DNA of 64,000 bases. Origin: Armatimonadota bacterium. Lineage in GTDB: Bacteria > Armatimonadota > Fimbriimonadia > Fimbriimonadales > Fimbriimonadaceae. Below the pieces are notes generated by a model. That model was not told where the DNA came from and ran no database searches. It saw nothing but the letters and a program-made list of their open reading frames with translations. Both the position numbers and the translations under genes were made by a program. The stretch covers positions 1-64,000 of the forward strand of contig JACRPN010000023.1 in NCBI GenBank assembly GCA_016223145.1, written 5' to 3'. Below, piece after piece: positions 876-50,118 of the stretch. How positions within the stretch are numbered: the stretch's first letter is position 1; every line of letters begins with the position of its first letter.

Positions 876-2318
876 TTACGCCACAATCCCCAGTTCCGGC
901 ACGTTCTTCCAGACCCCTCGGGTGAAGTCGGGGACATCCACCGACCTTCCCCGCCTGGCCACTGAGACCTCGGAGAGCGGCGAGATCGCCGACCAGGCTG
1001 CCGCGTCGTAAACGTCCTGATCCAGCGGGAGACCGTTGCGCAGGCAGTAGACCATGCGCCAGAGCATGATGAAGTCCATGTCGCCATGGCCGCCGAGGTT
1101 GCCGGGCAGGTTCTTCACCTTGGTGTAGAGCGGGTGGTCGTATTTCTGGAACCACTTTCCAAGCTCTGCGTCCTCGGTCCAACCGTCGGCGCTCTTGGTC
1201 GCCAGCAGCCGGTTTTGCGCATCCTGGGTGCCCTTGGGCGCCTCGATGACCATGCGGTTCGGGTAGCCGCCGAAGACTCCCCGCGTACCCTGGAGCAGGT
1301 TCAGCCGGTTGTAGGGGCGCGGAAGCTGCTCATCCCACTGCACCATGATCGTCTTGCCCATCACCGTGCGTATGATCGTAGTATTGATGTCTCCGCAGAT
1401 GAACTTGGCCTTATTCCACTTGTGGTCCGGCGGGAAGTTGTCCTTGGCGTATTGGGCGCGGACCCGCGAGTTCGAGGAGACCGAGCTGAGGAAGTCCATG
1501 CGGTCGCCTCGGTTGATGCCCATGTACTGGCACACCGGCCCCAAGCCGTGCGTCGCATAGAGGTTGCCGTTTCGCTTGATGTAGTGGGGAGTTCTCCAGC
1601 TCCCGGTGCCCCGCTCGATCTCGTGCATTTGGCCGCGCAGATCATGGATATAGGCGGCTTCGCCATGCAAAAGCTCACCAAAAAGTCCTAGGCGCGCCAT
1701 GTGCAGGACCAGGAGTTCCTCTCGCCCGTAGCAGCAGTTTTCCATCATCATGCAGTGCTTGTGGGTCTTTTCCGAGGTCTCGACAAGCTGCCAGCACTCG
1801 TCGAGCGTCACACAGGCCGGCACCTCGATGAAGGCGTGCTTGCCCCGGTTCATGGCATCCACCGCCATGCGGGCGTGCTCCTCCCAGGGCGTCGAGATAA
1901 TGGCGATGTCGATGTCGTCGCGGTCGAGCATCGCCTTATAGCTGTCTTTGCCGGGGCCGTAGATCGTCGGCTTGGGGCGGCCTGCCTTTACACACCGGTT
2001 GGCGCTGTTTTCGGCCCAATCGGGATAGAGGTCGGCGATCGCCTTGACTTCGACGCCATCGATTTGCAGCATCTGGGCGACGTGGCCGGAGCCTCGCGCG
2101 CCCACGCCAATGAACCCGACGCGCACCTTGTCCAGTTTCGGAGCCGCATAGCCCGCCATGGTCTTCTGGTTCTGAGCAGGAGTCGGCTCGGGGAAGGAGA
2201 TTGAATCCGGTCCGAAGTCCGAGGCCCGAGGTCCGAGGGAGTTTGCCAGGGCTGACGAGGATAGGGCAGCAGCTCCGGCGGTGCCGAGGAACTGGCGTCG
2301 GTTGATGCGTTGGCTCAT
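876..2318 (-). CDS. Tat-exported Gfo/Idh/MocA oxidoreductase, GH109-type
   Basis: 480 residues. The N-terminus carries a twin-arginine signal (NRRQFLG at 6-12, then an Ala/Ser-rich stretch). An NAD-binding Rossmann motif GFIGVGARGSG lies at 68-78, with the family EVPA motif near 142. The central region (MMMENCCYGREELL, then HDLRGQMHEIERG and GNLYATHGLGPV) matches the glycoside hydrolase 109 branch of Gfo/Idh/MocA proteins. GH109 members cleave sugars such as alpha-N-acetylgalactosamine through an NAD-dependent oxidation-elimination cycle. Substrate cannot be read from sequence. Export fits a role on polysaccharide or glycoprotein outside the cytoplasm. Residues about 28-37, just after the signal, are encoded by four heptamer repeat units (2208-2235), so this linker looks repeat-derived. 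Confidence 0.85.
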   Translation of the reverse strand: MSQRINRRQFLGTAGAAALSSSALANSLGPRASDFGPDSISFPEPTPAQNQKTMAGYAAPKLDKVRVGFIGVGARGSGHVAQMLQIDGVEVKAIADLYPDWAENSANRCVKAGRPKPTIYGPGKDSYKAMLDRDDIDIAIISTPWEEHARMAVDAMNRGKHAFIEVPACVTLDECWQLVETSEKTHKHCMMMENCCYGREELLVLHMARLGLFGELLHGEAAYIHDLRGQMHEIERGTGSWRTPHYIKRNGNLYATHGLGPVCQYMGINRGDRMDFLSSVSSNSRVRAQYAKDNFPPDHKWNKAKFICGDINTTIIRTVMGKTIMVQWDEQLPRPYNRLNLLQGTRGVFGGYPNRMVIEAPKGTQDAQNRLLATKSADGWTEDAELGKWFQKYDHPLYTKVKNLPGNLGGHGDMDFIMLWRMVYCLRNGLPLDQDVYDAAAWSAISPLSEVSVARRGRSVDVPDFTRGVWKNVPELGIVA

Positions 2319-8434: not shown

Positions 8435-8490
8435 GATGCCGCGCTTCTCCGTTGCACGGCTCGATGGGCCCGTGCCGCGCGTTCGTTCCT

Positions 8491-8588
8491 TTGCGCATCT
8501 GGCGAACACCTAAAGTGCGCCGGCACGGAACCGGCGGCTTTGCGCATCTGGCGAACACCTAAGGTGCGCCGGCACGGAACCGGCGGCT
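8491..8588. repeat. Tandem duplication of a 49-bp unit
   Basis: Copies at 8491-8539 and 8540-8588 differ at one base. Each contains the palindromic core GCCGG-CACGGA-ACCGGC and the phrase GGCGAACACCTAA. No reading frame through it is convincing. Confidence 0.85.
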
Positions 8589-15654: not shown

Positions 15655-16776
15655 GTGGACCGGATCCTGCTTGCTGCACCCCGAGGCTTTTGCGCTGGAG
15701 TGGCCTATGCCATCGAGGTGGTCGACCTGGCGCTCAAAATCCACGGCCCCCCCATTTACGTTCGCCATGCCATCGTACACAACGAGTGGGTGGTTCGTAG
15801 CTTTGAAGATCGCGGCGTCGTATTCGTCGAGGACGTAGATGACGTCCCGACAGGCATGCCCGCTGTTTTCAGTGCTCACGGCGTGAGTCCGGCTGTCCGG
15901 GAGCAAGCCAAAAATCGGGGCCTGTTGGTCATCGACGCGACTTGCCCGCTGGTCACCAAGGTTCACAACGAGGCCAAGCGCTACGCCGACAAAGGTTACT
16001 TCATGATCTACATCGGCCACGCGGGACACGTGGAGGCTGAAGGCACCATGGGCGAGGCGCCTGGGCGTATGGTACTGGTGGATAGTCCCGAAGACGCCGA
16101 GAAGCTCGACTTGCCCTATCACGAGAAGCTGGCGGTGCTCACGCAGACGACCCTGAGCGTCGACGAGGTCCAGCGCACGCTCGATGTGCTCAAACGGCGC
16201 TTCCCGCATCTGGAAACCCCCGCGAAGGAGGACATCTGCTATGCGACCACCAACCGACAGGCCGCGGTCCGCGAACTTGCGAAGCACTGCCAATTGGTGC
16301 TTGTAGTCGGAAGTCAAACCTCGTCGAACTCCAACCGACTTCGAGAAGTCGCTGAGTCCCTGGGGGCGGAAGCCCACCTGATCATGTCGCCCTCAGACAT
16401 CCGGCCGCAATGGCGGACGAACTACCCGGTCGTGGGAATCTCCTCGGGCGCAAGCACCCCGGAGCATCTGGTGGAAGATGTGATCGGCGAGCTGATCAGG
16501 GAGCCAGGGACGGAGGGACAAGGAGGAGGTCTGCGGTCTGAGGTCCGAGGTCAGGAAGAAGAGAGACCAAGGGACGGAGGGACGGAGGGACAAGGAGGCA
16601 CTGCCTTAGCCTCGCCCCTTTGGGGAGGGGCCGGTGAGCGTAGCGAACCGGGTGAGGGGGAAGCGGGTCCACGCACAACCCCAACACGGCCCACCGTCGA
16701 GATTCTCGAAACCGTTCGCGAGGACGTCCGGTTCTTGCCGCCTAGAGAGTTGATTCAGTTGGCGCAAAAGACCTAA
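15655..16776 (+). CDS. ispH: 4-hydroxy-3-methylbut-2-enyl diphosphate reductase with repeat-derived insert
   Basis: 373 residues from GTG 15655; the family is usually about 310. Last step of the MEP pathway, making IPP and DMAPP. Iron-sulphur cysteines are Cys13 (RGFCAGV), Cys97 (DATCPLV) and Cys195 (DICYATTNRQ). The catalytic TQTTLS and the SSNSNRL phosphate-binding motif are present. Between IGELIRE (279-283) and RPTVEILETV (345 on), an insert of about 62 Gly/Glu/Arg-rich residues is encoded by three repeat types: octamers NRAGGGAC, heptamers RGGTCYG, and one copy of the AGCGTAGCGAACCG family. The insert sits just before the last conserved strand (EDVRFLPPRE), so the enzyme probably still folds. 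Confidence 0.93.
   Translation: MDRILLAAPRGFCAGVAYAIEVVDLALKIHGPPIYVRHAIVHNEWVVRSFEDRGVVFVEDVDDVPTGMPAVFSAHGVSPAVREQAKNRGLLVIDATCPLVTKVHNEAKRYADKGYFMIYIGHAGHVEAEGTMGEAPGRMVLVDSPEDAEKLDLPYHEKLAVLTQTTLSVDEVQRTLDVLKRRFPHLETPAKEDICYATTNRQAAVRELAKHCQLVLVVGSQTSSNSNRLREVAESLGAEAHLIMSPSDIRPQWRTNYPVVGISSGASTPEHLVEDVIGELIREPGTEGQGGGLRSEVRGQEEERPRDGGTEGQGGTALASPLWGGAGERSEPGEGEAGPRTTPTRPTVEILETVREDVRFLPPRELIQLAQKT
16504..16660. repeat. Composite repeat block inside ispH
   Basis: Octamers at 16504-16527 and 16568-16599 (units such as GGAGGGAC, CAAGGGAC), four heptamers at 16527-16554 (AGGTCTG, CGGTCTG, AGGTCCG, AGGTCAG), and an interspersed-family copy at 16611-16660. All of it is translated in the ispH frame without a stop. 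Confidence 0.85.
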
Positions 16777-19522: not shown

Positions 19523-19592
19523 GGGTCTGGGGTTCGGGAGCTGGGGTCCGAGGTCCGAGGTCTGAGGTCCGAGGTCAGAATTCAGAGGTCTG
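19523..19592. repeat. Heptamer array RGGTCYG
   Basis: Ten consecutive seven-base units without one indel: GGGTCTG, GGGTTCG, GGAGCTG, GGGTCCG, AGGTCCG, AGGTCTG, AGGTCCG, AGGTCAG, AATTCAG, AGGTCTG. Diverged units keep their length, which argues for spacing being kept or for origin by unit slippage before divergence. Confidence 0.85.
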
Positions 19593-26418: not shown

Positions 26419-27488
26419 AGAAGCTCGATAGCTACGTGCTGAAAGAACTCGTGCTGCCGTTCTTGGTCGGCACGGTCGCCGTCGTGCTCATGTTCCAGGC
26501 GAACATGCTCATCTTTCAGCTCAAAACGTTCTCGGTCTCGAGCGTCCCGCTGACTGCCACTCTCCAAACGATCCTCTATAGCACACCCGGCTTCCTGCGG
26601 ATGACTCTTCCAGTCGGAACCTCCCTTGCTGCGGCACTCGCCATTTCGCGTCTGGCGAGGGAAAGCGAGCTCAACGCCATGCGCATCGCCGGCGCGCCGC
26701 TTCTTAGGATCTGCATCCCCGTGGCGTTCTTCGGGCTGGCGGTCGCAGCGGGCAACTTCTGGATCTCGGAGAAGGTGATGCCCGTGACCGAGGTCGGCGC
26801 CCGCAAAATCATGCAGCAGGTGGGGCTCCTCGGCGTCATGCCGGACTTCAAGAGCAACGTCGTGATCAACCTGCCGAACTACTCGGCGAACATCGGCTCC
26901 GTCTCAAAGACCAACGACAACACGCTAAGGCTCTACGACGTGATCCTCTTTGAGCGGCCCGATGCCGACGTGATCAGCGTCATCCGCGCCAAAACCGGCG
27001 AATACAAGGACGGCGTCTGGACCTTCCACGGCACCAAGTACTGGTGGTTCAAGGGCGACAGCGTCGTGGACTTCAAGTCCGGCAAGCCCGTAGTCATCAA
27101 CGACCCGATCACCATTTCGGACTTCTTCACCACCGAACTCGACACGGAGTCCAATGCCGCAACCCTGGCTCAGAGCATCGCCGAGCGCAAGAAGACAGGC
27201 GTCGATTCCACGTGGGCCCAAGTGCTTTACCACACGCACTTCAGCATCCCCGCTTCCTCGATCATCTTTGCATTCGTTTCACCCGTGTTCGCCGTGCTCT
27301 TCGCCCGCAGCGGAAGCTACATGGGTCTCTTTCTCAGCATCCTGATCTGCGGCCTCTACTATAACGCGCATATCGTGTGTACCGAGGTTCTGGGCAGGCA
27401 TGGCTGGCTGAGCCCCGTGCTGGCGGCATGGGCGCCCAACATCCTCTTTCTGGCTTTGGGAGTGCTGGCGGTGCGGAGGTTGGAGTGA
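26415..27488 (+). CDS. lptF: LptF/LptG-type LPS transport permease
   Basis: 357 residues from TTG 26415, which overlaps the previous stop by four bases (TTGA). YjgP/YjgQ family: N-terminal KKLDSYVLKELVLPFLVGTVAVVLMF, three spans, a large periplasmic beta-jellyroll region (about 130-265), then three C-terminal spans ending in LGVLAVRRLE. In the LptB2FG machine this subunit extracts lipopolysaccharide. Only one permease gene is found here, so the partner must be elsewhere or the protein works as a homodimer. F versus G cannot be decided. Confidence 0.9.
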   Translation: MKKLDSYVLKELVLPFLVGTVAVVLMFQANMLIFQLKTFSVSSVPLTATLQTILYSTPGFLRMTLPVGTSLAAALAISRLARESELNAMRIAGAPLLRICIPVAFFGLAVAAGNFWISEKVMPVTEVGARKIMQQVGLLGVMPDFKSNVVINLPNYSANIGSVSKTNDNTLRLYDVILFERPDADVISVIRAKTGEYKDGVWTFHGTKYWWFKGDSVVDFKSGKPVVINDPITISDFFTTELDTESNAATLAQSIAERKKTGVDSTWAQVLYHTHFSIPASSIIFAFVSPVFAVLFARSGSYMGLFLSILICGLYYNAHIVCTEVLGRHGWLSPVLAAWAPNILFLALGVLAVRRLE

Positions 27489-29815
27489 GGCCGCTGCCGG
27501 CGGCGATTCTGATGGCGCTTCCCTGCGCGGCGCTCGCACAAAGTGGGGGCACGGGTCTGGCCACCGAGGTTGGAAAGGCGCTTGGCGCAAAGCCGAGGCC
27601 CGGCAACCCGCTCGATCCCAAGGGCACCCCTGGGCTACCCGAGCGCGACTCCTCCCTTCCTGAACCCCAGGCGGACGTCAACGTCTTTCAGTTGGTCCAA
27701 GCCGATCGTTGGAAACGAGTGGGTGACCAGATCGTGCTCGACGGCGGGGTGCAGTGCCACTACAAGGGCTACGACCTTTTCGCCGATCACATCGAGGGCG
27801 ACCTCGTCACCAACGTGTTCACCCTCACAGGGAGCGCCCGACTGGTCGGCAAGGACGGGATCGTGCGCGGCGACATCATCACCGCCGACCTCGACGCCAA
27901 GACATTTCGCGCAGGCAAAGCCGCGGCCCAGCTCCGTCCGGATCTCCTTCAGGGCCGCGTGGTGGACGACGTCTACATCTGGGGCGCTGAGACCTATGGC
28001 GACCCCAAGACCATCCACACCCACGATGGCGGCCTGACAACGTGCAACCTGGACCATCCCCACTACACGATCGACTCGAAAGATATCACGATCCGTACCG
28101 GCAAGCGGATCATTCTGAGAAACTCGAAGTTCGTGGTCCTCGGGCGAACGCTTTTTCGGATTCCCTATCTGGCGATCCCGCTCGACACGAAGAGGGAACG
28201 ATACACGCCCCAGATTGGGAGCGACCCTACCACGGGCTTCTTCATCAAGAACCGCATCGGCATCCCGATCCGGGGCAATAACTCGCTGGACGCCGACCTC
28301 GACTATTACTCCAAGCTGGGCTTCGGGATTGGAGGCATTTTCGGCTATGCGGGGAGCGCTTACGACGGCTACCTAAGGGCCTATGGGATCCTCGGCGACA
28401 CCAACACGGTGGAACTCCGCTCCCAGCACAACCAGGATTTTGGCTCGGGCGCGCAGTTCACGATGTCGAACAATTATCAGCAGCGCAACCAGTTCAACGC
28501 ACCGCAGAACACGAGCCTGAACACCCAGGCGTCACTCACCCTTCCGAGGGGCGGCCAGGGCCAAGCCCGGGGCCAGAACACGACTCGGCTGACCTTAATA
28601 CGCAACTCCAACGAGTCGCCATCTTTTTTCAGCAAGAACCAGGTCTGGGGTCTCTACGATCAAGAGCGATGGGGCAAGACGACCTCTGCGACCCTCAACC
28701 TTAAGTGGGCCACCTATGAGTCGGGCTCTTCGAACGGCACCCCGGTCCACCGGGAACAGGTCGACGTGCAGGTGCGCGCCCAGCAGGAAACCTCAAAGGG
28801 CCAGGCCGAGCTTGAATACTCGCGGAGCATCCCTGTCGGCGAGGTGGCGAACTTCTTCAGCGCGCAGGATAGAACCCCGGTCCTCTCCTTCCGCACCGAC
28901 TCCCGGAAGCTGCTCGGCGAAGACGCGAAGCCCTGGCTTCCCTTCACCGCCGAAATGAGCCTTGGTGAGTATGCCGATCCGGGTTCAAGGGGCAAGATCA
29001 CCAGGTCGTTCTTCGATTTCTCTGCCAACCGGGCGATGCAGAGCGGGAAAGGGTTCGGTTTTGGGCTTCAGGGCCGCTTCCGGCAAGGAATCTACAGCGA
29101 CGACACGGCCCAATTCGCCCTCCAAGTCAATCCGACGTTGCGCTACGGGTTCAGTAACGACACGGGGCTGAACATCCGCTACAACTACTTGCGGGCTCAT
29201 GGATACTCGCCGCTCTCTCAAGATCGTGTGGGCGAAACCAACCTCGCTACGGCCGACCTGAGCGTTCGTGCCCTGCCAACGCTGAAACTGGGGGTCCAGA
29301 CCGGTTACGACCTGCTGGCATCGGAGCGCCCCGGCGTGCTTTCCGCTTGGCAGCAGCTCGGCATACGCACCGAATGGACCCCGAACGACGCCTTTCAGCT
29401 TCGCGCTTGGCCCGTGTACGACACCGCAAACCGTCGGTGGGGCAACGTCCGCCTCGACGCCGACTACGGGTACGGCGACCTCTATCTTTCAGTGGGCGCC
29501 CGGTATGACTCCCCCCGGCACACTTGGGGCACCGTGAACTTCCGGGCGGACGGTTTGACCTTCGGCAAAACGCGCCTGAGCGTGCAGGGCGCGTTCAACG
29601 GGTACCTGAACAAGTGGGAGTCGATCTGGTATTCGGCAAGCTACGACCTCCATTGCTGGGAAGCCGTGCTTCAGGTGGCCGACAACAAGACCGGTTTCCG
29701 CGCTGGGCAGCAGATCTTCTTTGGGGTGCGCCTGAAGGCGTTCCCGTTCGACACGAGCTTTGGCACCGGCACCCGCGGCCAGCCGATCGGCACGGGTACG
29801 GGTATGGGGTACTAG
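27485..29815 (+). CDS. lptD: LptD/OstA-like outer-membrane assembly protein
   Basis: 776 residues from GTG 27485, which overlaps the lptF stop (GTGA) and gives a signal peptide (LPAAILMALPCAALAQ). The frame is open further upstream inside lptF, but that is a shadow. An OstA-type beta-jellyroll lies at about 60-220 (GDQIVLDGGVQCHYKGYDLFADHIEGD), followed by a long series of amphipathic strands that form an LptD-like barrel (about 230-770). It is expected to insert lipopolysaccharide or a similar glycolipid into the outer membrane. The order lptF-lptD in one operon supports this. The cell is therefore a diderm. Confidence 0.88.
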   Translation: MRPLPAAILMALPCAALAQSGGTGLATEVGKALGAKPRPGNPLDPKGTPGLPERDSSLPEPQADVNVFQLVQADRWKRVGDQIVLDGGVQCHYKGYDLFADHIEGDLVTNVFTLTGSARLVGKDGIVRGDIITADLDAKTFRAGKAAAQLRPDLLQGRVVDDVYIWGAETYGDPKTIHTHDGGLTTCNLDHPHYTIDSKDITIRTGKRIILRNSKFVVLGRTLFRIPYLAIPLDTKRERYTPQIGSDPTTGFFIKNRIGIPIRGNNSLDADLDYYSKLGFGIGGIFGYAGSAYDGYLRAYGILGDTNTVELRSQHNQDFGSGAQFTMSNNYQQRNQFNAPQNTSLNTQASLTLPRGGQGQARGQNTTRLTLIRNSNESPSFFSKNQVWGLYDQERWGKTTSATLNLKWATYESGSSNGTPVHREQVDVQVRAQQETSKGQAELEYSRSIPVGEVANFFSAQDRTPVLSFRTDSRKLLGEDAKPWLPFTAEMSLGEYADPGSRGKITRSFFDFSANRAMQSGKGFGFGLQGRFRQGIYSDDTAQFALQVNPTLRYGFSNDTGLNIRYNYLRAHGYSPLSQDRVGETNLATADLSVRALPTLKLGVQTGYDLLASERPGVLSAWQQLGIRTEWTPNDAFQLRAWPVYDTANRRWGNVRLDADYGYGDLYLSVGARYDSPRHTWGTVNFRADGLTFGKTRLSVQGAFNGYLNKWESIWYSASYDLHCWEAVLQVADNKTGFRAGQQIFFGVRLKAFPFDTSFGTGTRGQPIGTGTGMGY

Positions 29816-29867
29816 GTCGGGGAACGCAGTGAATCGAAGATCCCGCGCCTTACTGGACCGGGTGATG
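29816..29867. repeat. Truncated copy of the interspersed AGCGNAGCGAATCG family
   Basis: The stretch CGCAGTGAATCGAAGATCCC and the following CGCGCCTT...GGACCGGGTGA match the central and right parts of the two 105-bp copies at 49.6-49.8 kb. The left part is missing. It lies directly behind the lptD stop. Confidence 0.75.
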
Positions 29868-29872
29868 GTGTC

Positions 29873-29977
29873 AGGTCTGAGGTCTGAGGTCCGAGGTCCG
29901 AGGTCTGAGGTCTGGGGTCTGAGGTCTGAGGTCTGAGGTCCGAGGTCTGGGGTCTGGGGTCTGGGGTCTGGGGTCCG
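29873..29977. repeat. Heptamer array RGGTCYG, 15 units
   Basis: Exactly 105 bases in 15 units, drawn only from AGGTCTG, AGGTCCG, GGGTCTG and GGGTCCG. Variation is limited to unit positions 1 and 6. This is the longest and cleanest array in the window. Confidence 0.95.
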
Positions 29978-29981
29978 TTTT

Positions 29982-30002
29982 CCGCTATCCGGTATCCGTC
30001 AT
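29982..30002. repeat. Heptamer array CCGNTAT
   Basis: CCGCTAT, CCGGTAT, CCGTCAT follow the RGGTCYG array after four bases. The same unit occurs on the other strand at 38131-38151. Confidence 0.6.
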
Positions 30003-30020
30003 CAGTGGTCCCAGTATCAT

Positions 30021-30069
30021 CTCTCCCGACCGGGAGAGGTCGGTGAACGCAGCGAACCGGCGGAGGGGA
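30021..30069. repeat. Short copy of the interspersed AGCGNAGCGAACCG family
   Basis: CTCTCCC/GGGAGAG hairpin, then GTCGGTGAACGCAGCGAACC and GGAGGGG. It abuts the stop of the ABC-2 permease gene. Confidence 0.75.
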
Positions 30070-30855
30070 CTAGCTGCTCGCGCTAGCGTAGTTCCTTGTC
30101 GCATACAGCCAGAACAGCCGAGAAGCGAGGAGCGCGCCGAGCGCCCATGCCACCCCGATGCCGACGTGGATCAAGTTGAGACCGCGGGTGAGCTGGCTCG
30201 CCGGGACCGTTGCCAGGAAGGCCAACGGAATCCCATAGGTGAACGCCCTGCGCACCGACATCGGGAAGATGTCGATCGGGTACCGGGCGATGTCGAGCAC
30301 GGTCTCCCCCAGCACCCACAGGTTGTCCACTCGGACCAGCCAGATGGCGGTGGTCATCATGATCAGGTTCGCCGAATAGAAAAGGGCGATCGCGACCTTG
30401 ATGAGCAGCAGGTACGCAACCCACTGCCAGAAGCTTGGGTGCAGGCCGGACTGAACGAGGCCGATCACGAGCATCACGATCCCCGCCAAGAGCGCCCCGA
30501 GGCGGTCGAAATTGAAGCGTCGCATCGACACCCAGAACTGGGAATCGAGCGGCTTGGTCAGGATGTAATCGAGGGTTCCCCGACGAATGTGTTCGGGGAT
30601 CTCCATCAGCGAGAAGAACATCGCCGAGAACAGCGCGCTCATCGCAAAACAGGTTGCCACCAGAATGAACGCCTCACCCCGTCCCCAATTGGCGATGCTC
30701 GGCGTGTTCCGATAGATCGCCAGAAGCACGAGCAGGGAGAACCCGACCCACGTGGCGTTTTGGAGCAGCTTGGCCAGGAAGTTGGCGCGAAACTCCAGCT
30801 CGCGGGCAAGTGAGCTGACCCAAAACGTGCGGTACACGCGCCAAATGCGGGACAT
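30070..30855 (-). CDS. ABC-2 type transporter permease (COG3694/DUF990-like)
   Basis: 261 residues with six predicted membrane spans. The N-terminus (RVYRTFWVSSLARELEFRANFLAKLL) and the phrase IPEHIRRGTLDYILTKPLDSQF are typical of the uncharacterised DUF990-type ABC-2 permeases. These usually come as two permeases plus an ATPase. Neither partner is adjacent, so they must be elsewhere. The substrate is unknown. It is divergent from the next gene with only 23 bases between the start codons, so one of the two starts may be further inside. Confidence 0.85.
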   Translation of the reverse strand: MSRIWRVYRTFWVSSLARELEFRANFLAKLLQNATWVGFSLLVLLAIYRNTPSIANWGRGEAFILVATCFAMSALFSAMFFSLMEIPEHIRRGTLDYILTKPLDSQFWVSMRRFNFDRLGALLAGIVMLVIGLVQSGLHPSFWQWVAYLLLIKVAIALFYSANLIMMTTAIWLVRVDNLWVLGETVLDIARYPIDIFPMSVRRAFTYGIPLAFLATVPASQLTRGLNLIHVGIGVAWALGALLASRLFWLYATRNYASASS

Positions 30856-34752: not shown

Positions 34753-35561
34753 GAAGGCCCTCACCCACCGAGCCCGTAGCCGAGCTCAAGCGCGTGCCTA
34801 TTCAGGAAAACGGAGAGCCGATGGTGGACTTCGCGGTCGCTTGTCCGACGCTCGTCATCGCCTCGCCGGTGTACCGCTACACGCGAGCGACCCTTGTCCG
34901 CGCCACGGTCGCCGAGATGCTCAACAGGGCCGCAGAAGCCATCCCCAAGGGTTACCGGCTGGGCATCCTCGAAGGCTGGCGCCCCAACTACATCCAGCGC
35001 AGGATGTATCTGACCCAGTGGATCCGCTTCAAACAGCTTCATCCGGACTGGTCGGACCTGCAGCTTCGCCGCGTCGTCAACCGCTTCACCCACCCGCACA
35101 ACGCCAAGGCGCCACCACCCCACGCCAGCGGCGGCGCTGTAGACGTCATGCTTGTGGATGCGGAAGGCCAGCGGATCGACCACTCTTCGCCCTACAAAGT
35201 CTTTGACCCGAAGAACTACCCGCATGACTGTCCGGGCCTGAGCGAGACGGCCAAAAAGCACAGGCAGATCCTTCGCGAAGCGATGTTTCACGGCGGGATG
35301 ACGAACTACCCTAGCGAATACTGGCACTGGAGCTACGGCGACCAGGGGTGGGCATACCGGGGCTCGCAAGCTCCGAGCGTCCCTTTGTCCCTTGGTCCCT
35401 CTGTCCCTTCGCTAGGCCAATCACCCCAGGGATTCGCAATCTATGGCCCGATCTTCACCCCGGAGGGTTGGACGCCTGTTGCCGAAGACGACAACGACGA
35501 GCCGTTGGAACGCCTCTGGGGCGGTGGAGTGGGTAGCGGGTTTCCTCGAAAGGCCTCCTAA
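34749..35561 (+). CDS. VanX-like D-alanyl-D-alanine dipeptidase (M15D) with octamer insert
   Basis: 270 residues from GTG 34749, overlapping the lysC stop (GTGA). Zinc-peptidase features are GWRP (GILEGWRPNYIQ), the H-x-x-G-G-A-x-D site (PHASGGAVDVML) and the closing EYWHWSYGDQ, which contains the catalytic Glu and third ligand. It likely cuts D-Ala-D-Ala or related peptidoglycan dipeptides. There is no signal peptide, so it acts in the cytoplasm, perhaps in recycling. After the catalytic core, a Ser/Pro/Leu stretch (APSVPLSLGPSVPSLG) is encoded by four octamers (35379-35410). The C-terminal part (FAIYGPIFTPEGW) then resumes. Co-transcription with lysC links it to cell-wall precursors. Confidence 0.87.
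   Translation: MRRPSPTEPVAELKRVPIQENGEPMVDFAVACPTLVIASPVYRYTRATLVRATVAEMLNRAAEAIPKGYRLGILEGWRPNYIQRRMYLTQWIRFKQLHPDWSDLQLRRVVNRFTHPHNAKAPPPHASGGAVDVMLVDAEGQRIDHSSPYKVFDPKNYPHDCPGLSETAKKHRQILREAMFHGGMTNYPSEYWHWSYGDQGWAYRGSQAPSVPLSLGPSVPSLGQSPQGFAIYGPIFTPEGWTPVAEDDNDEPLERLWGGGVGSGFPRKAS
35379..35410. repeat. Octamer array GTCCCTYN inside the dipeptidase gene
   Basis: GTCCCTTT, GTCCCTTG, GTCCCTCT, GTCCCTTC. The reverse complement (NRAGGGAC) is the octamer found in the ispH insert. Confidence 0.85.
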
Positions 35562-36446: not shown

Positions 36447-38066
36447 ATGACGAGCGTGGGGAGCAAGGCAAGGCAGTGGGCTATCAGGTGCTTTGTGGTG
36501 CTCCTGTGCATGGCGCTTGGCGGTGCCCTGGTCGCCGGATACAACTTCGTCAGACACCGCAAGGCCGAGTCAGCGGCGCTCCTAGGAAGCTACGCCCGCA
36601 AGGACGTGCTCGCCGAAGCCGTGCGCAAAGACCCCTCCGCCGCGAATTACTTCAAGCTCGCCGAGGCCGCCGTGGCCACCGAGGACTTCGAGTCGGCGAG
36701 AAAAGCCTACGAGGGTGCGGCAGGCATCTACCGATCACTTGGCAAGATCAGTTTTGCCTATTCGGCCGAGCGCTTGGCGCAGCGCTACGAGGTCGTGGCC
36801 AAGCCCTTTGTTCATGAGGAGGCCGACAAGGGGACCATGGCGATGTTCGACACCAAGCGTCGACTGGAACCCGCCTATGGCTGCTATCTGGGCGCCTTTA
36901 TTGACCACGAGGACTCGATCAAAGGCACCTACCGCGACGAATATGGAACCTGGAGGCGCGACGTCAGCTCCTTCAACCACCTCTCCGGTACGCACCACGC
37001 CCTGTTCTTCATGTATCTGGGCTACGGGCGGCAATTCCCCCAGAAGTTCGTCGAGCACATGAAGCTGAACAAGGCGGGCGCTCAAATCGCGTGGGAGCCT
37101 TCAAGCTTGGAACAGGTCAAGGACGACGCCTACCTGCACGAGTTTGCCAGGGCCGCCAAAGAGAGCAAGACCCCCATCTTTCTGCGCTTTGCGAGCGAGA
37201 TGAACGGGGATTGGGTGCCCTATCACGGCGACCCCAAAAAGTACATCGAGAAGTTCCGCCTAGTGGCAAAGGTGATGCACGAAGAAGCCCCGAATGTGGC
37301 GATGGTCTGGTGCCCGTTCGAGACGCCGGTCAGCATTATGAACGACTACTACCCCGGCGACGAAGCCGTTGATTGGGTAGGGGTAAACATCTACAGTGTG
37401 CCCTATTGGAACGACGACCCCAAGCAGCCGGCAGCCTGGCGCAACCCCGCGGACGCGTTGCGATATGTCTACGAAACCTATTCCGAAAAGCATCCGATCA
37501 TGATCTGCGAGTACGCGGCCTCGCACCGGTCGTCCCTCGACCAGATGGACCGCTCCGAGCTCGCGCGCACCAAGATGGCCCAGTTCTACTCGGCGCTCCC
37601 CAGGATTTACCCACGGGTGAAAGCCGTCTGCTGGCTCAGCATGAACGCGATCAAGCACGCCATCCCGGGGAGGCAGTCGAATGACTATTCCTTGCTGGGA
37701 GATGAGAACGTGCGACGACGCTACGAAGAGCTCTTGAGCGTGGAGCCGCACTACCTAAGAACACTTGAACTTGGGGAATGGACCTATGCGAAGTCGTATC
37801 CTGTCGAGCTGGACGATGGCGCTCTGCTGCCTCGCCGAGCGGCGCTTACAGCCTGGGTGAAGCTCTACGACGACCACCCGACGGTGGTATGGAAGGTCAA
37901 CGGCCAAGCCGTTTCGCAGTCCTCGCTGCCGGGCCCGCACCGCTATGTGCTGGATACCCGCAAGCTGCCGAAAGGCGAGGCGACGATCGAACTGGACGTG
38001 TTTGACGACGCAGGCCGACTGGCAGCGCATGTGGAGCGCAAGGTTCAGGTGGGGGATGGGCGTTAG
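36447..38066 (+). CDS. Membrane-anchored glycoside hydrolase, GH26-type
   Basis: 539 residues from ATG 36447. One N-terminal span (FVVLLCMALGGALVAGYNF), then a short TPR-like helical region (about 62-115), the GH26 (beta/alpha)8 domain (about 140-420), and a C-terminal beta domain. The acid/base is Glu251 in FLRFASEMNGDW, and the nucleophile is Glu355 in IMICEYAAS. Both match GH26, whose members cut beta-mannans and related glucans. The anchored TPR plus hydrolase form suggests work on the cell's own exopolysaccharide and not on food. The substrate cannot be read from sequence. Confidence 0.9.
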   Translation: MTSVGSKARQWAIRCFVVLLCMALGGALVAGYNFVRHRKAESAALLGSYARKDVLAEAVRKDPSAANYFKLAEAAVATEDFESARKAYEGAAGIYRSLGKISFAYSAERLAQRYEVVAKPFVHEEADKGTMAMFDTKRRLEPAYGCYLGAFIDHEDSIKGTYRDEYGTWRRDVSSFNHLSGTHHALFFMYLGYGRQFPQKFVEHMKLNKAGAQIAWEPSSLEQVKDDAYLHEFARAAKESKTPIFLRFASEMNGDWVPYHGDPKKYIEKFRLVAKVMHEEAPNVAMVWCPFETPVSIMNDYYPGDEAVDWVGVNIYSVPYWNDDPKQPAAWRNPADALRYVYETYSEKHPIMICEYAASHRSSLDQMDRSELARTKMAQFYSALPRIYPRVKAVCWLSMNAIKHAIPGRQSNDYSLLGDENVRRRYEELLSVEPHYLRTLELGEWTYAKSYPVELDDGALLPRRAALTAWVKLYDDHPTVVWKVNGQAVSQSSLPGPHRYVLDTRKLPKGEATIELDVFDDAGRLAAHVERKVQVGDGR

Positions 38067-38088
38067 GGCATTAGGGCACTGGGGCATT
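38062..38088. repeat. Octamer array RTTAGGGC
   Basis: GTTAGGGC, ATTAGGGC, ACTGGGGC and a partial unit, partly overlapping the GH26 stop. The reverse complement (GCCCTAAY) forms the array 73 bases further on, giving an inverted pair. Confidence 0.8.
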
Positions 38089-38130
38089 ACACCTGTGCCA
38101 TGGCTTCCCTTTCCGAAAGGCGGAAATCGG

Positions 38131-38151: not shown

Positions 38152-38160
38152 ACACTCACT

Positions 38161-38232
38161 GCCCTAATGCCCTCATGCCCTAACGCCCTAATGCCCTAAT
38201 GCCCTAATGCCCCAATGCCCCAATGCCCTAAC
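38161..38232. repeat. Octamer array GCCCTAAY, nine units
   Basis: 72 bases in nine units of exactly eight (GCCCTAAT, GCCCTCAT, GCCCTAAC, GCCCCAAT variants). It ends at the stop of the pilin-like gene. Confidence 0.92.
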
Positions 38233-38234
38233 GC

Positions 38235-39038
38235 CTACTCATAGATACTCTTCACACTCGAAAACATCGGCCTCTTCAGGCCGAAGTAGGTGATCCTCTT
38301 GGCGTGGGTGTCGGCCCAGAGCGCATTGGCACCTTTGCGGTGGAGGAAATGGAAATGGTCGATGAGGTTCGGGTCGTTCGGAGGACTGTTGAACCAGTCG
38401 GACGGCTGGAGGAAGTTGCAGACGGGCGCCCTGGCCTCGTGCTCCCAAAGCAAGAGGGTGCCGGCAGGCTCCTCGACCACCGAAGCATTGGCGCCGAGCG
38501 AGACCGTGGCGCCGCTGACATCGGTTTCACCGGTACGCGCCATCGGGCCATATTCTTGGCCCCTGGCCGCAGGGTTGGTGTTGTAGTACTCGGACGAGAT
38601 CCCCGGATTGAACCAATTGGTGGCGTAGGAAAGCTGCCATTCGCCCGGCATGGCGGGGCAGCGCTTGACGCCTTCATCCTTCAGGTAGCGGTCGATGGCG
38701 CCCGGCCGGACCGGATTCTGCGCGGGCTCGATCCCCCTACCAAAGAACCCGCCCAGGAGACCCGCATTGTTGTTGTCATAGCCGATCCACATCTGCTGCG
38801 GCGCAAAGCCGGGTAGGTTGTCGATGAGCGCCGCTGGGCAATAGGTGTCGTCCTCATCGGCCAGATAGAGCGAGACGGCGAGGCCCAACTGGCGCATGTT
38901 GCTCATGCACACGATCTGCTTGGCGGTGACCTTTGCCTGGACAAAAACCGGCAGCAGGATGGCAGCGAGGATCGCGATGATGGCGATGACAACGAGCAGC
39001 TCGATGAGCGTGAAGGCCTTTGGCAGGCGACGGCGCAT
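38235..39038 (-). CDS. Type IV pilin-like protein with H-X9-DG-type C-terminus
   Basis: 267 residues from ATG 39038 (GAGGG upstream, spacing 5). The prepilin N-terminus [26 protein letters not shown] has the cleavage and methylation site after KA-F and Glu at +5. The C-terminus [19 protein letters not shown] matches the H-X9-D(G/T) signature of the large family of pilin-like proteins in Planctomycetes, Verrucomicrobia and Armatimonadota. It is probably processed by a prepilin peptidase and joins a pseudopilus or surface layer. No other pilus gene lies nearby. Confidence 0.9.
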
Positions 39039-39110
39039 GGTTTCCCTCAAGGTATCTCCCATTCTGATACACGTCTAGGTCCGCTTGAGGCCCCGGTTTG
39101 GTTCGCAGAA

Positions 39111-39152
39111 GAGGCGAGAGGTGAGAAGCGAGGGGCGAGGAGCGAAGGGCGA
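39111..39152. repeat. Heptamer array RRRGCGA, six units
   Basis: GAGGCGA, GAGGTGA, GAAGCGA, GGGGCGA, GGAGCGA, AGGGCGA, with no indel. Confidence 0.85.
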
Positions 39153-39296: not shown

Positions 39297-39400
39297 ACCT
39301 AAACTGCAGTGCACCAGAGCACCTGAACACCCGAAAACTTAACTCCCTATCACCTGAAAACCTGAACGCCCAGCACCCGAACACCTGAACACCCACGCGC
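39297..39400. repeat. Octamer array ACCTGAAC (two 7-base units)
   Basis: About 13 units, among them ACCTAAAC, ACCAGAGC, ACCTGAAC, ACCCGAAA, ACCTGAAA, ACCCGAAC. Heptamers TTCGCCC follow to 39422. Confidence 0.75.
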
Positions 39401-39455
39401 CCCTCGCCCTTCGCCCTTCGCCCAGGGCCCTCAATATGCCACAATTCAGGTTCAA

Positions 39456-49978: not shown

Positions 49979-50013
49979 GATTTACGATTTGCGATTTGGG
50001 ATTTACGATTTCG
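49979..50013. repeat. Heptamer array GATTTNN
   Basis: GATTTAC, GATTTGC, GATTTGG, GATTTAC, GATTTCG, starting four bases behind the tRNA. It is unusually AT-rich for this window. Confidence 0.85.
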
Positions 50014-50063: not shown

Positions 50064-50108
50064 CACTCTCACCATTCCTTCCACTCTCACCACTCTCACC
50101 ACTCTCAC
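50064..50108. repeat. Nonamer array CACTCTCAC in nadB leader
   Basis: CACTCTCAC, CATTCCTTC, then CACTCTCAC three times. It ends ten bases before the nadB ATG, in the place where an SD would be expected. No SD is visible. Confidence 0.85.
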
Positions 50109-50118
50109 CTCCCTTACT

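Follow-up and report, generated by a model that had tools for sequence, protein, structure and literature searches.

A 15-unit RGGTCYG heptamer array as a probable member of a set of inserted 7-9-nt repeat arrays in a Fimbriimonadaceae genome

The 15-unit heptamer array at positions 29873-29977 of the window (the whole 64,000-nucleotide stretch analysed here; contig 23, GenBank JACRPN010000023.1, positions 1 to 64,000, of the 3.87-Mb draft genome GCA_016223145.1 of an Armatimonadota bacterium, hereafter G000) is probably one member of a genome-wide, lineage-specific set of insertions that carry tandem arrays of 7-, 8- and 9-nt units, and the gene blocks on its two sides lie apart in a congener. 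Judged from gene spacings in the congeners, array-bearing DNA has been inserted into nearly empty gene junctions, and recently. The preferred reading of these insertions, which is held tentatively and at a little under even confidence, is that they were written by slippage in 7-9-nt steps together with fold-back copying, and have been kept where harmless.

The 105 bases of the focal array comprise 15 units of RGGTCYG with zero off-register bases, in which five bases are fixed and the choice is A or G at unit position 1 and T or C at position 6, precisely as the earlier note had described both the register and the variation. The longest RGGTCYG run obtained when the window was simulated 100 times with an order-2 Markov model was 2 units, against the 15 observed, and the window contains the two-unit pattern (≤1 mismatch) 25 times versus 0.65 expected, with a maximum of 2 per shuffle in 100 shuffles; a chance origin of the arrays is ruled out by these shuffles and simulations. 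Read in its G-rich orientation the focal array has stop codons in each of the three frames; read in the C-rich one it has none. The last five G runs fit the canonical G-quadruplex pattern, with one G3+ match in the 15 units, as a sequence pattern only. The array stands between a REP-like palindrome and a diverged half copy of that element (Table 1). Genes to its left match 552-563 kb of congener G001, and those to its right match 394-399 kb, with the order inverted; the match of the left flanking gene to LptD is weak and partial, far below the cut-off.

Table 1. Positions of the focal array, its surroundings and other repeat arrays in the window.
Feature	Position	Strand	Remarks
GH109-type gene	876-2318		PF21252
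RGGTCYG-family array in GH109-type gene	2209-2238	+	G-rich antisense; near N-terminus
ispH gene	15700-16776		PF02401 LYTB
AGGTCYG array, then AGGGACGG octamer array	16526-16591	+	IspH C-terminal extension, past LYTB domain
Degenerate RGGTCYG array	19523-19592	+	4 perfect units at 19544-19571; between PLP-enzyme gene and cyclophilin gene
Left flanking gene	27485-29815	+	Orthologue in congeners, 44-45% identity
Intergenic region with focal array	29816-30069	.	Flanking genes convergent; synteny breakpoint versus congener G001
Diverged half copy of REP-like element, gtcggggaacgcagtgaatcg	29816-29836	+	17/21 bases as at 30039-30059
RGGTCYG array, 15 units (focal)	29873-29977	+	G-rich on +
REP-like palindromic element tctctcccgaccgggagaggtcggtgaacgcagcgaaccg	30020-30059	.
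Right flanking gene, ABC-2 family transporter permease	30070-30855	-	PF06182
GTCCCTTN octamer array (AGGGACNN family)	35379-35409	-	C-terminal part of Peptidase_M15 gene
GGGCATTA octamer array	38058-38089	+	Left arm of inverted pair with 38160-38235
TGCCCTAA octamer array	38160-38235	-	Right arm of inverted pair with 38058-38089
GAAGCGAGGGGCGA heptamer array	39110-39152	+	Left side of region upstream of prolyl-tRNA synthetase gene
CACCTGAA and CGCCCTT arrays	39312-39423	-	Right side of region upstream of prolyl-tRNA synthetase gene
GATTTAC heptamer array	49979-50011	+	Left side of region shared with 50064-50109
CACTCTCAC nonamer array	50064-50109	-	Right side of region shared with 49979-50011

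The RGGTCYG unit had also been reported in the GH109-type gene and in ispH, and both occurrences were recovered, the former as a degenerate array and the latter as an array at 16526-16552, past the end of the LYTB domain. An array is likewise present where 10 units had been counted between the PLP-enzyme and cyclophilin genes, but that count was too high, as four consecutive units are perfect and the remainder degenerate. Elsewhere in the window, at 8489-8588, a 49-bp unit (CTTTGCGCATCTGGCG...GGCGG) is tandemly duplicated in nearly perfect form (98% match).

The wider census covered 1.6 Mb of stretches plus the window, 1.66 Mb or ∼43% of the G000 genome, and the same array detector was applied to congener samples of 1 Mb (G001) and 0.2 Mb (G002). 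Unit length is restricted: of the arrays in the 1.66 Mb, period 7 accounts for 96, period 8 for 65 and period 9 for 18, with at most two at each of the other periods from 4 to 13, and 114 of 178 arrays of period 7-9 lie outside predicted genes. About a dozen main word families and many minor ones follow one common grammar; RGGTCYG accounts for 29 arrays, and further recurring families include RGGCGAR, AGGGACNN, GGATTGC, GGTGAGAAT (9 nt), GATTTAC, GATGAAGG, GGGCATTA and TCAGGTGN, among others. Neighbouring units within an array resemble one another more closely than units in shuffled order (0.98 differences versus 1.34, sd 0.035, with 0 of 1000 shuffles that low), as expected if each unit is templated by the previous one or if there is block duplication, and some arrays shift from one word into another along their length.

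A scan of the whole genome, which had been proposed as a check, returned 117 three-unit RGGTCYG matches spread over many contigs of G000, against 7 for the reversed control; a lack of further copies, named in the earlier note as refuting, is thereby excluded. Zero three-unit matches were found in 60 relatives, including two congeners, and no period-7 array was found in 1 Mb of G001; the sampled C1 stretches of G001 and G002 carry a common long octamer array, CCAACACA/CCAACAAT, that is unlike the words of G000. Beyond the order, at least 120 stretches of named genomes contain RGGTCYG arrays of six units, with carriers among the matches listed that include a Thermoanaerobaculaceae MAG, Acidobacteria, Planctomycetes Poly30, Oceanobacter, Neolewinella and Streptomyces, and the whole genomes of some of the six-unit carriers hold tens to hundreds of three-unit matches. 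The interpretation in the earlier note is supported in part: G000 is the sole carrier of RGGTCYG arrays among 61 genomes of its own order, but because the arrays are found in many unrelated phyla the motif is not lineage-specific. At the loci found in named genomes through RGGTCYG, the other arrays among the matches listed have period 7 in 39 cases, period 6 in nine, and periods 8 and 9 in eight each. An assembly artefact, which had also been considered, is unlikely, as the arrays lie in-frame within conserved proteins and on many contigs, and similar arrays are present in unrelated named genomes.

Insertion is seen where gene neighbours are conserved. In G000 the spacing of six conserved array-bearing gene pairs is 166-313 bp, whereas in G001 the same pairs are separated by -4, -1, 5, 6, 40 and 44 bp; gene pairs without arrays have median spacings of 12 and 9 bp. 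In the comparison with G001 and G002, growth of more than 80 bp was found in 8 of 8 rows with arrays versus 18 of 135 others (p = 4e-7), rows that are partly dependent since two pairs were counted against both congeners. None of the tested sites with arrays in G000 has an array in the congener, and the interior of the insert at grown junctions is non-array sequence. These empty sites represent six gene pairs and one main congener, and with only ∼70% DNA identity where alignable the ends of the insertions cannot be placed to the base. Within genes, array-translated extra residues that are in-frame relative to congener orthologues are found in a fumarase-like enzyme, a dGTPase-like protein, a radical-SAM-like enzyme, an RND-type pump, a phosphopentomutase-like enzyme and the N-terminus of ribosomal protein L18 (names that are the authors' reading of the sequences, made independently of any family scan), and the inserted peptides vary with word family and frame. 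As a class the arrays do not appear to mark places prone to rearrangement; the focal one sits at a breakpoint, but the excess of arrays at breakpoints falls short of significance (5/38 versus 8/137, p = 0.16; length-matched p = 0.74).

The arrays obey a strand rule. With gene calls made by the authors (a dicodon caller replaced the first caller, and both gave the same orientation result), the G-rich strand of the 114 intergenic arrays points away from the nearest gene edge in a ratio of 87:27, rising to 41:1 for arrays in the outer 15% of the intergenic region (n = 42), and this is seen in all four arrangements of flanking genes, whatever the gene direction. When adjacent opposite-strand arrays are scored without gene calls, 15 are in G..C and one in C..G order. 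Loci found through RGGTCYG in named genomes, among the matches listed, favour G..C order by 20:6. Adjacent arrays in three named genomes of other phyla (L062, L122 and L145) are in the opposite C..G order, and the rule may differ between lineages. Since the G-rich strand runs inward from each insert edge, left and right arms are inverted and often belong to one word family; inverted 7-mers common to the two ends of one intergenic region reach 1.02 versus 0.48 for swapped ends (sd 0.056), with little excess in the congeners (0.57 versus 0.49). Beside genes, the G-rich strand is the sense strand in a ratio of 40:3 within 40 nt after stop codons, and the antisense strand in a ratio of 16:1 within 40 nt before start codons. 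Array starts lie mostly 1-7 nt past natural stop codons because insertion is into junctions of a few bp, and part of the edge rule can stem from stops, given that the focal array has them in the G-rich strand and none in the C-rich strand. The ends of genes adjoining arrays coincide with the ends of their orthologues, and this agreement of C-termini rules out gene truncation through stop codons supplied by the arrays. A choice of target according to the stop codon was likewise rejected, the stop usage beside arrays being like background, although this is a crude proxy.

Folding z-scores against mononucleotide shuffles lay between -2.5 and -10 for nine of 11 chosen inserts, and the common structure was a single long, near full-length hairpin with the arrays as its arms; some inserts have one arm only and fold poorly, and the window's own insert has the G-rich arm only and no good fold (z = +4.1). 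REP-like palindromes accompany array regions (19/60 versus 44/449, p = 2e-5) and are nearly absent from the two congeners. Such palindromes, including ACCGGGTGAGGG, CCTCTCCCC..GGGGAGAGG, CAGACTCTCAGTCTG and others, are dispersed over many intergenic regions of G000. Matches to Y1_Tnp number 12 in G000 versus 4 and 4 in the congeners. Four strong copies of the IS200/IS605 type are located at C5:138613, C5:144745, C5:206448 and C11:195558, and each congener has one. The single Y1 protein that was scanned proved to be an ordinary transposase of the IS200/IS605 type, and for the REP-like palindromes and Y1 proteins present neither the fixed tag (GTAG or CGTC) nor the RAYT gene link of REP/RAYT systems was established. 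Loss of MutS as a cause was rejected, MutS being present in G000; neither reverse transcriptase nor Ku was found in that genome. No match to SbcC_Walker_B (PF13558) was found in six genomes of this family (G000, G001, G002, G003, G006 and G013), while 12 of 14 control genomes have one. Inverted repeats could persist where such a hairpin nuclease is missing, but because PF13558 is unmatched in five relatives too, its absence is perhaps permissive and does not explain the difference between G000 and its relatives.

The STRR of heterocystous cyanobacteria are short tandem heptamers dispersed between genes, and a likeness to them had been proposed in the earlier note. The analogy is sound insofar as G000 contains a dispersed, strand-asymmetric class of intergenic tandem heptamers, the two being compared by description only, but it does not extend to a single heptamer, as the units in G000 are of 7, 8 and 9 nt. 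Three STRR in Calothrix are mentioned in a study of the heptamer repeats GGGAATC / GGGGA(C/T)T of Xanthomonas and Nostoc, which are dispersed and intergenic, comprise 2 to 26 units, and have as their G-rich strand the coding one directly past stops and the non-coding one directly ahead of starts (Rehm et al., 2015; PMC4692102). Xanthomonas has about 70 convergent inverted GGGAATC pairs per genome (PMC4692102). G000 shares with these genomes the dispersed, mostly intergenic heptamers, the stop/start strand rule and the convergent inverted pairs, but its units are RGGTCYG and other 7-9-nt words rather than GGGNATC / GGGGAYT, and where Xanthomonas and Nostoc have one motif of period 7 only, it has about a dozen main families of periods 7, 8 and 9 that are absent from its congeners. 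Conservation also differs, 83% of repeats being kept between two species in that study (PMC4692102) versus no tested G000 site with an array in the congener, and the insertion and in-frame protein inserts seen in G000 were outside the focus of that study.

TAACTGA direct repeats of Beggiatoaceae, Cyanobacteria and Bacteroidetes (MacGregor, 2015; PMC4679880) resemble the G000 arrays as intergenic heptamers with a patchy distribution across phyla and stop codons in one orientation; unlike them, they represent a single motif in few copies, mostly upstream of starts in one orientation, with one inverted case. In Geobacter metallireducens four tandem GGGACCG units occur at 49 sites, in and between genes, and other classes have 7-8-nt tandem units paired on opposite strands as in G000, but sequence and copy number are fixed within each class, and the elements have been read as regulator sites (PMC2700814). 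Rickettsia palindromic elements, in the account of Ogata (2000) as relayed by PMC10969869, lie in-frame in unrelated housekeeping genes, as G000 arrays do in conserved proteins according to orthologue alignments; the same account gives them as ∼150-bp families with conserved sequence and peptide, whereas the G000 arms are short-period arrays and the inserts are without conserved sequence. REP and REPIN elements with their RAYT transposases form many small intergenic hairpins with a conserved 20-40-nt palindrome (PMC3116915; PMC2817692), and REP-like palindromes accompany the G000 arrays, but the array arms share no sequence. We did not find a description of many 7-9-nt unit families in one genome, with one grammar and with empty sites in a congener.

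In the slippage and fold-back reading, a 3' end engaged in replication repair or restart would be lengthened by repeated 7-9-nt slippage, each unit being templated by the preceding one; the extended end would then fold back or switch template and copy its own array in inverted form, and the product would be joined into the chromosome. Harmless insertions would survive, whether in the gaps of a few bases that separate genes or, in-frame, in loops of proteins. The polymerase or other enzyme, the order of the steps, the fold-back and the joining are what we infer here. The locking of unit length to 7-9 nt across many sequences, the neighbour-unit likeness, the strand rule, the inverted sharing of 7-mers, the empty sites, the in-frame protein inserts and the hairpins all speak for this sequence of events; against it, no enzyme has been identified, the empty sites come from six gene pairs, some inserts, the window's own among them, have one arm and fold poorly, and the same words recur at many places in G000 and in other phyla, which plain self-templating does not predict and which needs between-site copying or a sequence preference. 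Simple expansion in situ, by slippage of short seeds in old intergenic DNA with a strand bias from selection on stops or leaders, would equally yield the likeness of neighbouring units, and stops confined to the G-rich orientation of the focal array would bias the locations permitted; it is nevertheless improbable, as it cannot alone yield inverted arms of the same family or the inverted sharing of k-mers, and it does not account for congener junctions of -4 to 44 bp where G000 has 166-313 bp with a non-array interior. Similarly improbable is a telomere-like healing in which an enzyme adds G-rich 7-9-nt units to both broken 3' ends before joining, the arms being the healed ends. It would explain why the 3'-ending strand is G-rich at either side of the junction for any gene direction and why both arms often carry one word, but neither reverse transcriptase nor Ku was found in G000, and breakpoint enrichment is not significant, though the focal array sits at a breakpoint.

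Hairpin shape and insertion at gene junctions also suit non-autonomous REP/REPIN- or MITE-like elements with hairpin ends moved by an HUH transposase (Y1, of the IS200/IS605 or RAYT type), the array arms being what the enzyme tolerates or produces. The co-occurrence of arrays with REP-like palindromes nearly absent from the congeners, and the larger number of Y1_Tnp matches in G000, point the same way, but such elements are rather unlikely: the arms come from many unrelated families and have no common terminal sequence, the Y1 protein scanned is of the ordinary type with no RAYT identity established, and the crude proxy for target choice, stop-codon usage, is background-like. Selection near stops and starts on regulatory elements (terminators, G-quadruplex or RNA-hairpin switches, or protein-binding arrays) is quite unlikely, even though the strand ratios near stops and starts agree with it and part of the focal array fits a G-quadruplex pattern. 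The strand rule applies to either end of a gene and to every gene arrangement, and the tight spacing is explained by insertion into junctions of a few bp; GGG runs are absent from many families, and those like GATTTAC cannot match the G-quadruplex pattern; arrays also occur within proteins, the relatives manage without them, and no functional class is enriched among repeat-neighbouring genes in Xanthomonas (PMC4692102). The pattern can be explained with no need for a cellular function.

Over-representation of heptamers in bacteria has been noted for years with no agreed cause, and the papers on Xanthomonas, Nostoc, Beggiatoa and Geobacter each dealt with one motif that was read as a possible regulatory element. 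With many families under one grammar and empty congener sites, G000 moves the question from what a motif regulates to what inserts and extends units of 7-9 nt. As a bolder and rather doubtful proposal, this species and, independently, some bacteria of other phyla may carry a repeat-writing, telomere-like end-healing activity that works in 7-9-nt steps and leaves G-to-C inverted inserts; if so, it would copy the last unit or a remembered word, giving an output of fixed unit length and free sequence. The housekeeping proteins that have absorbed array DNA in-frame would represent a route to new protein loops outside Rickettsia.
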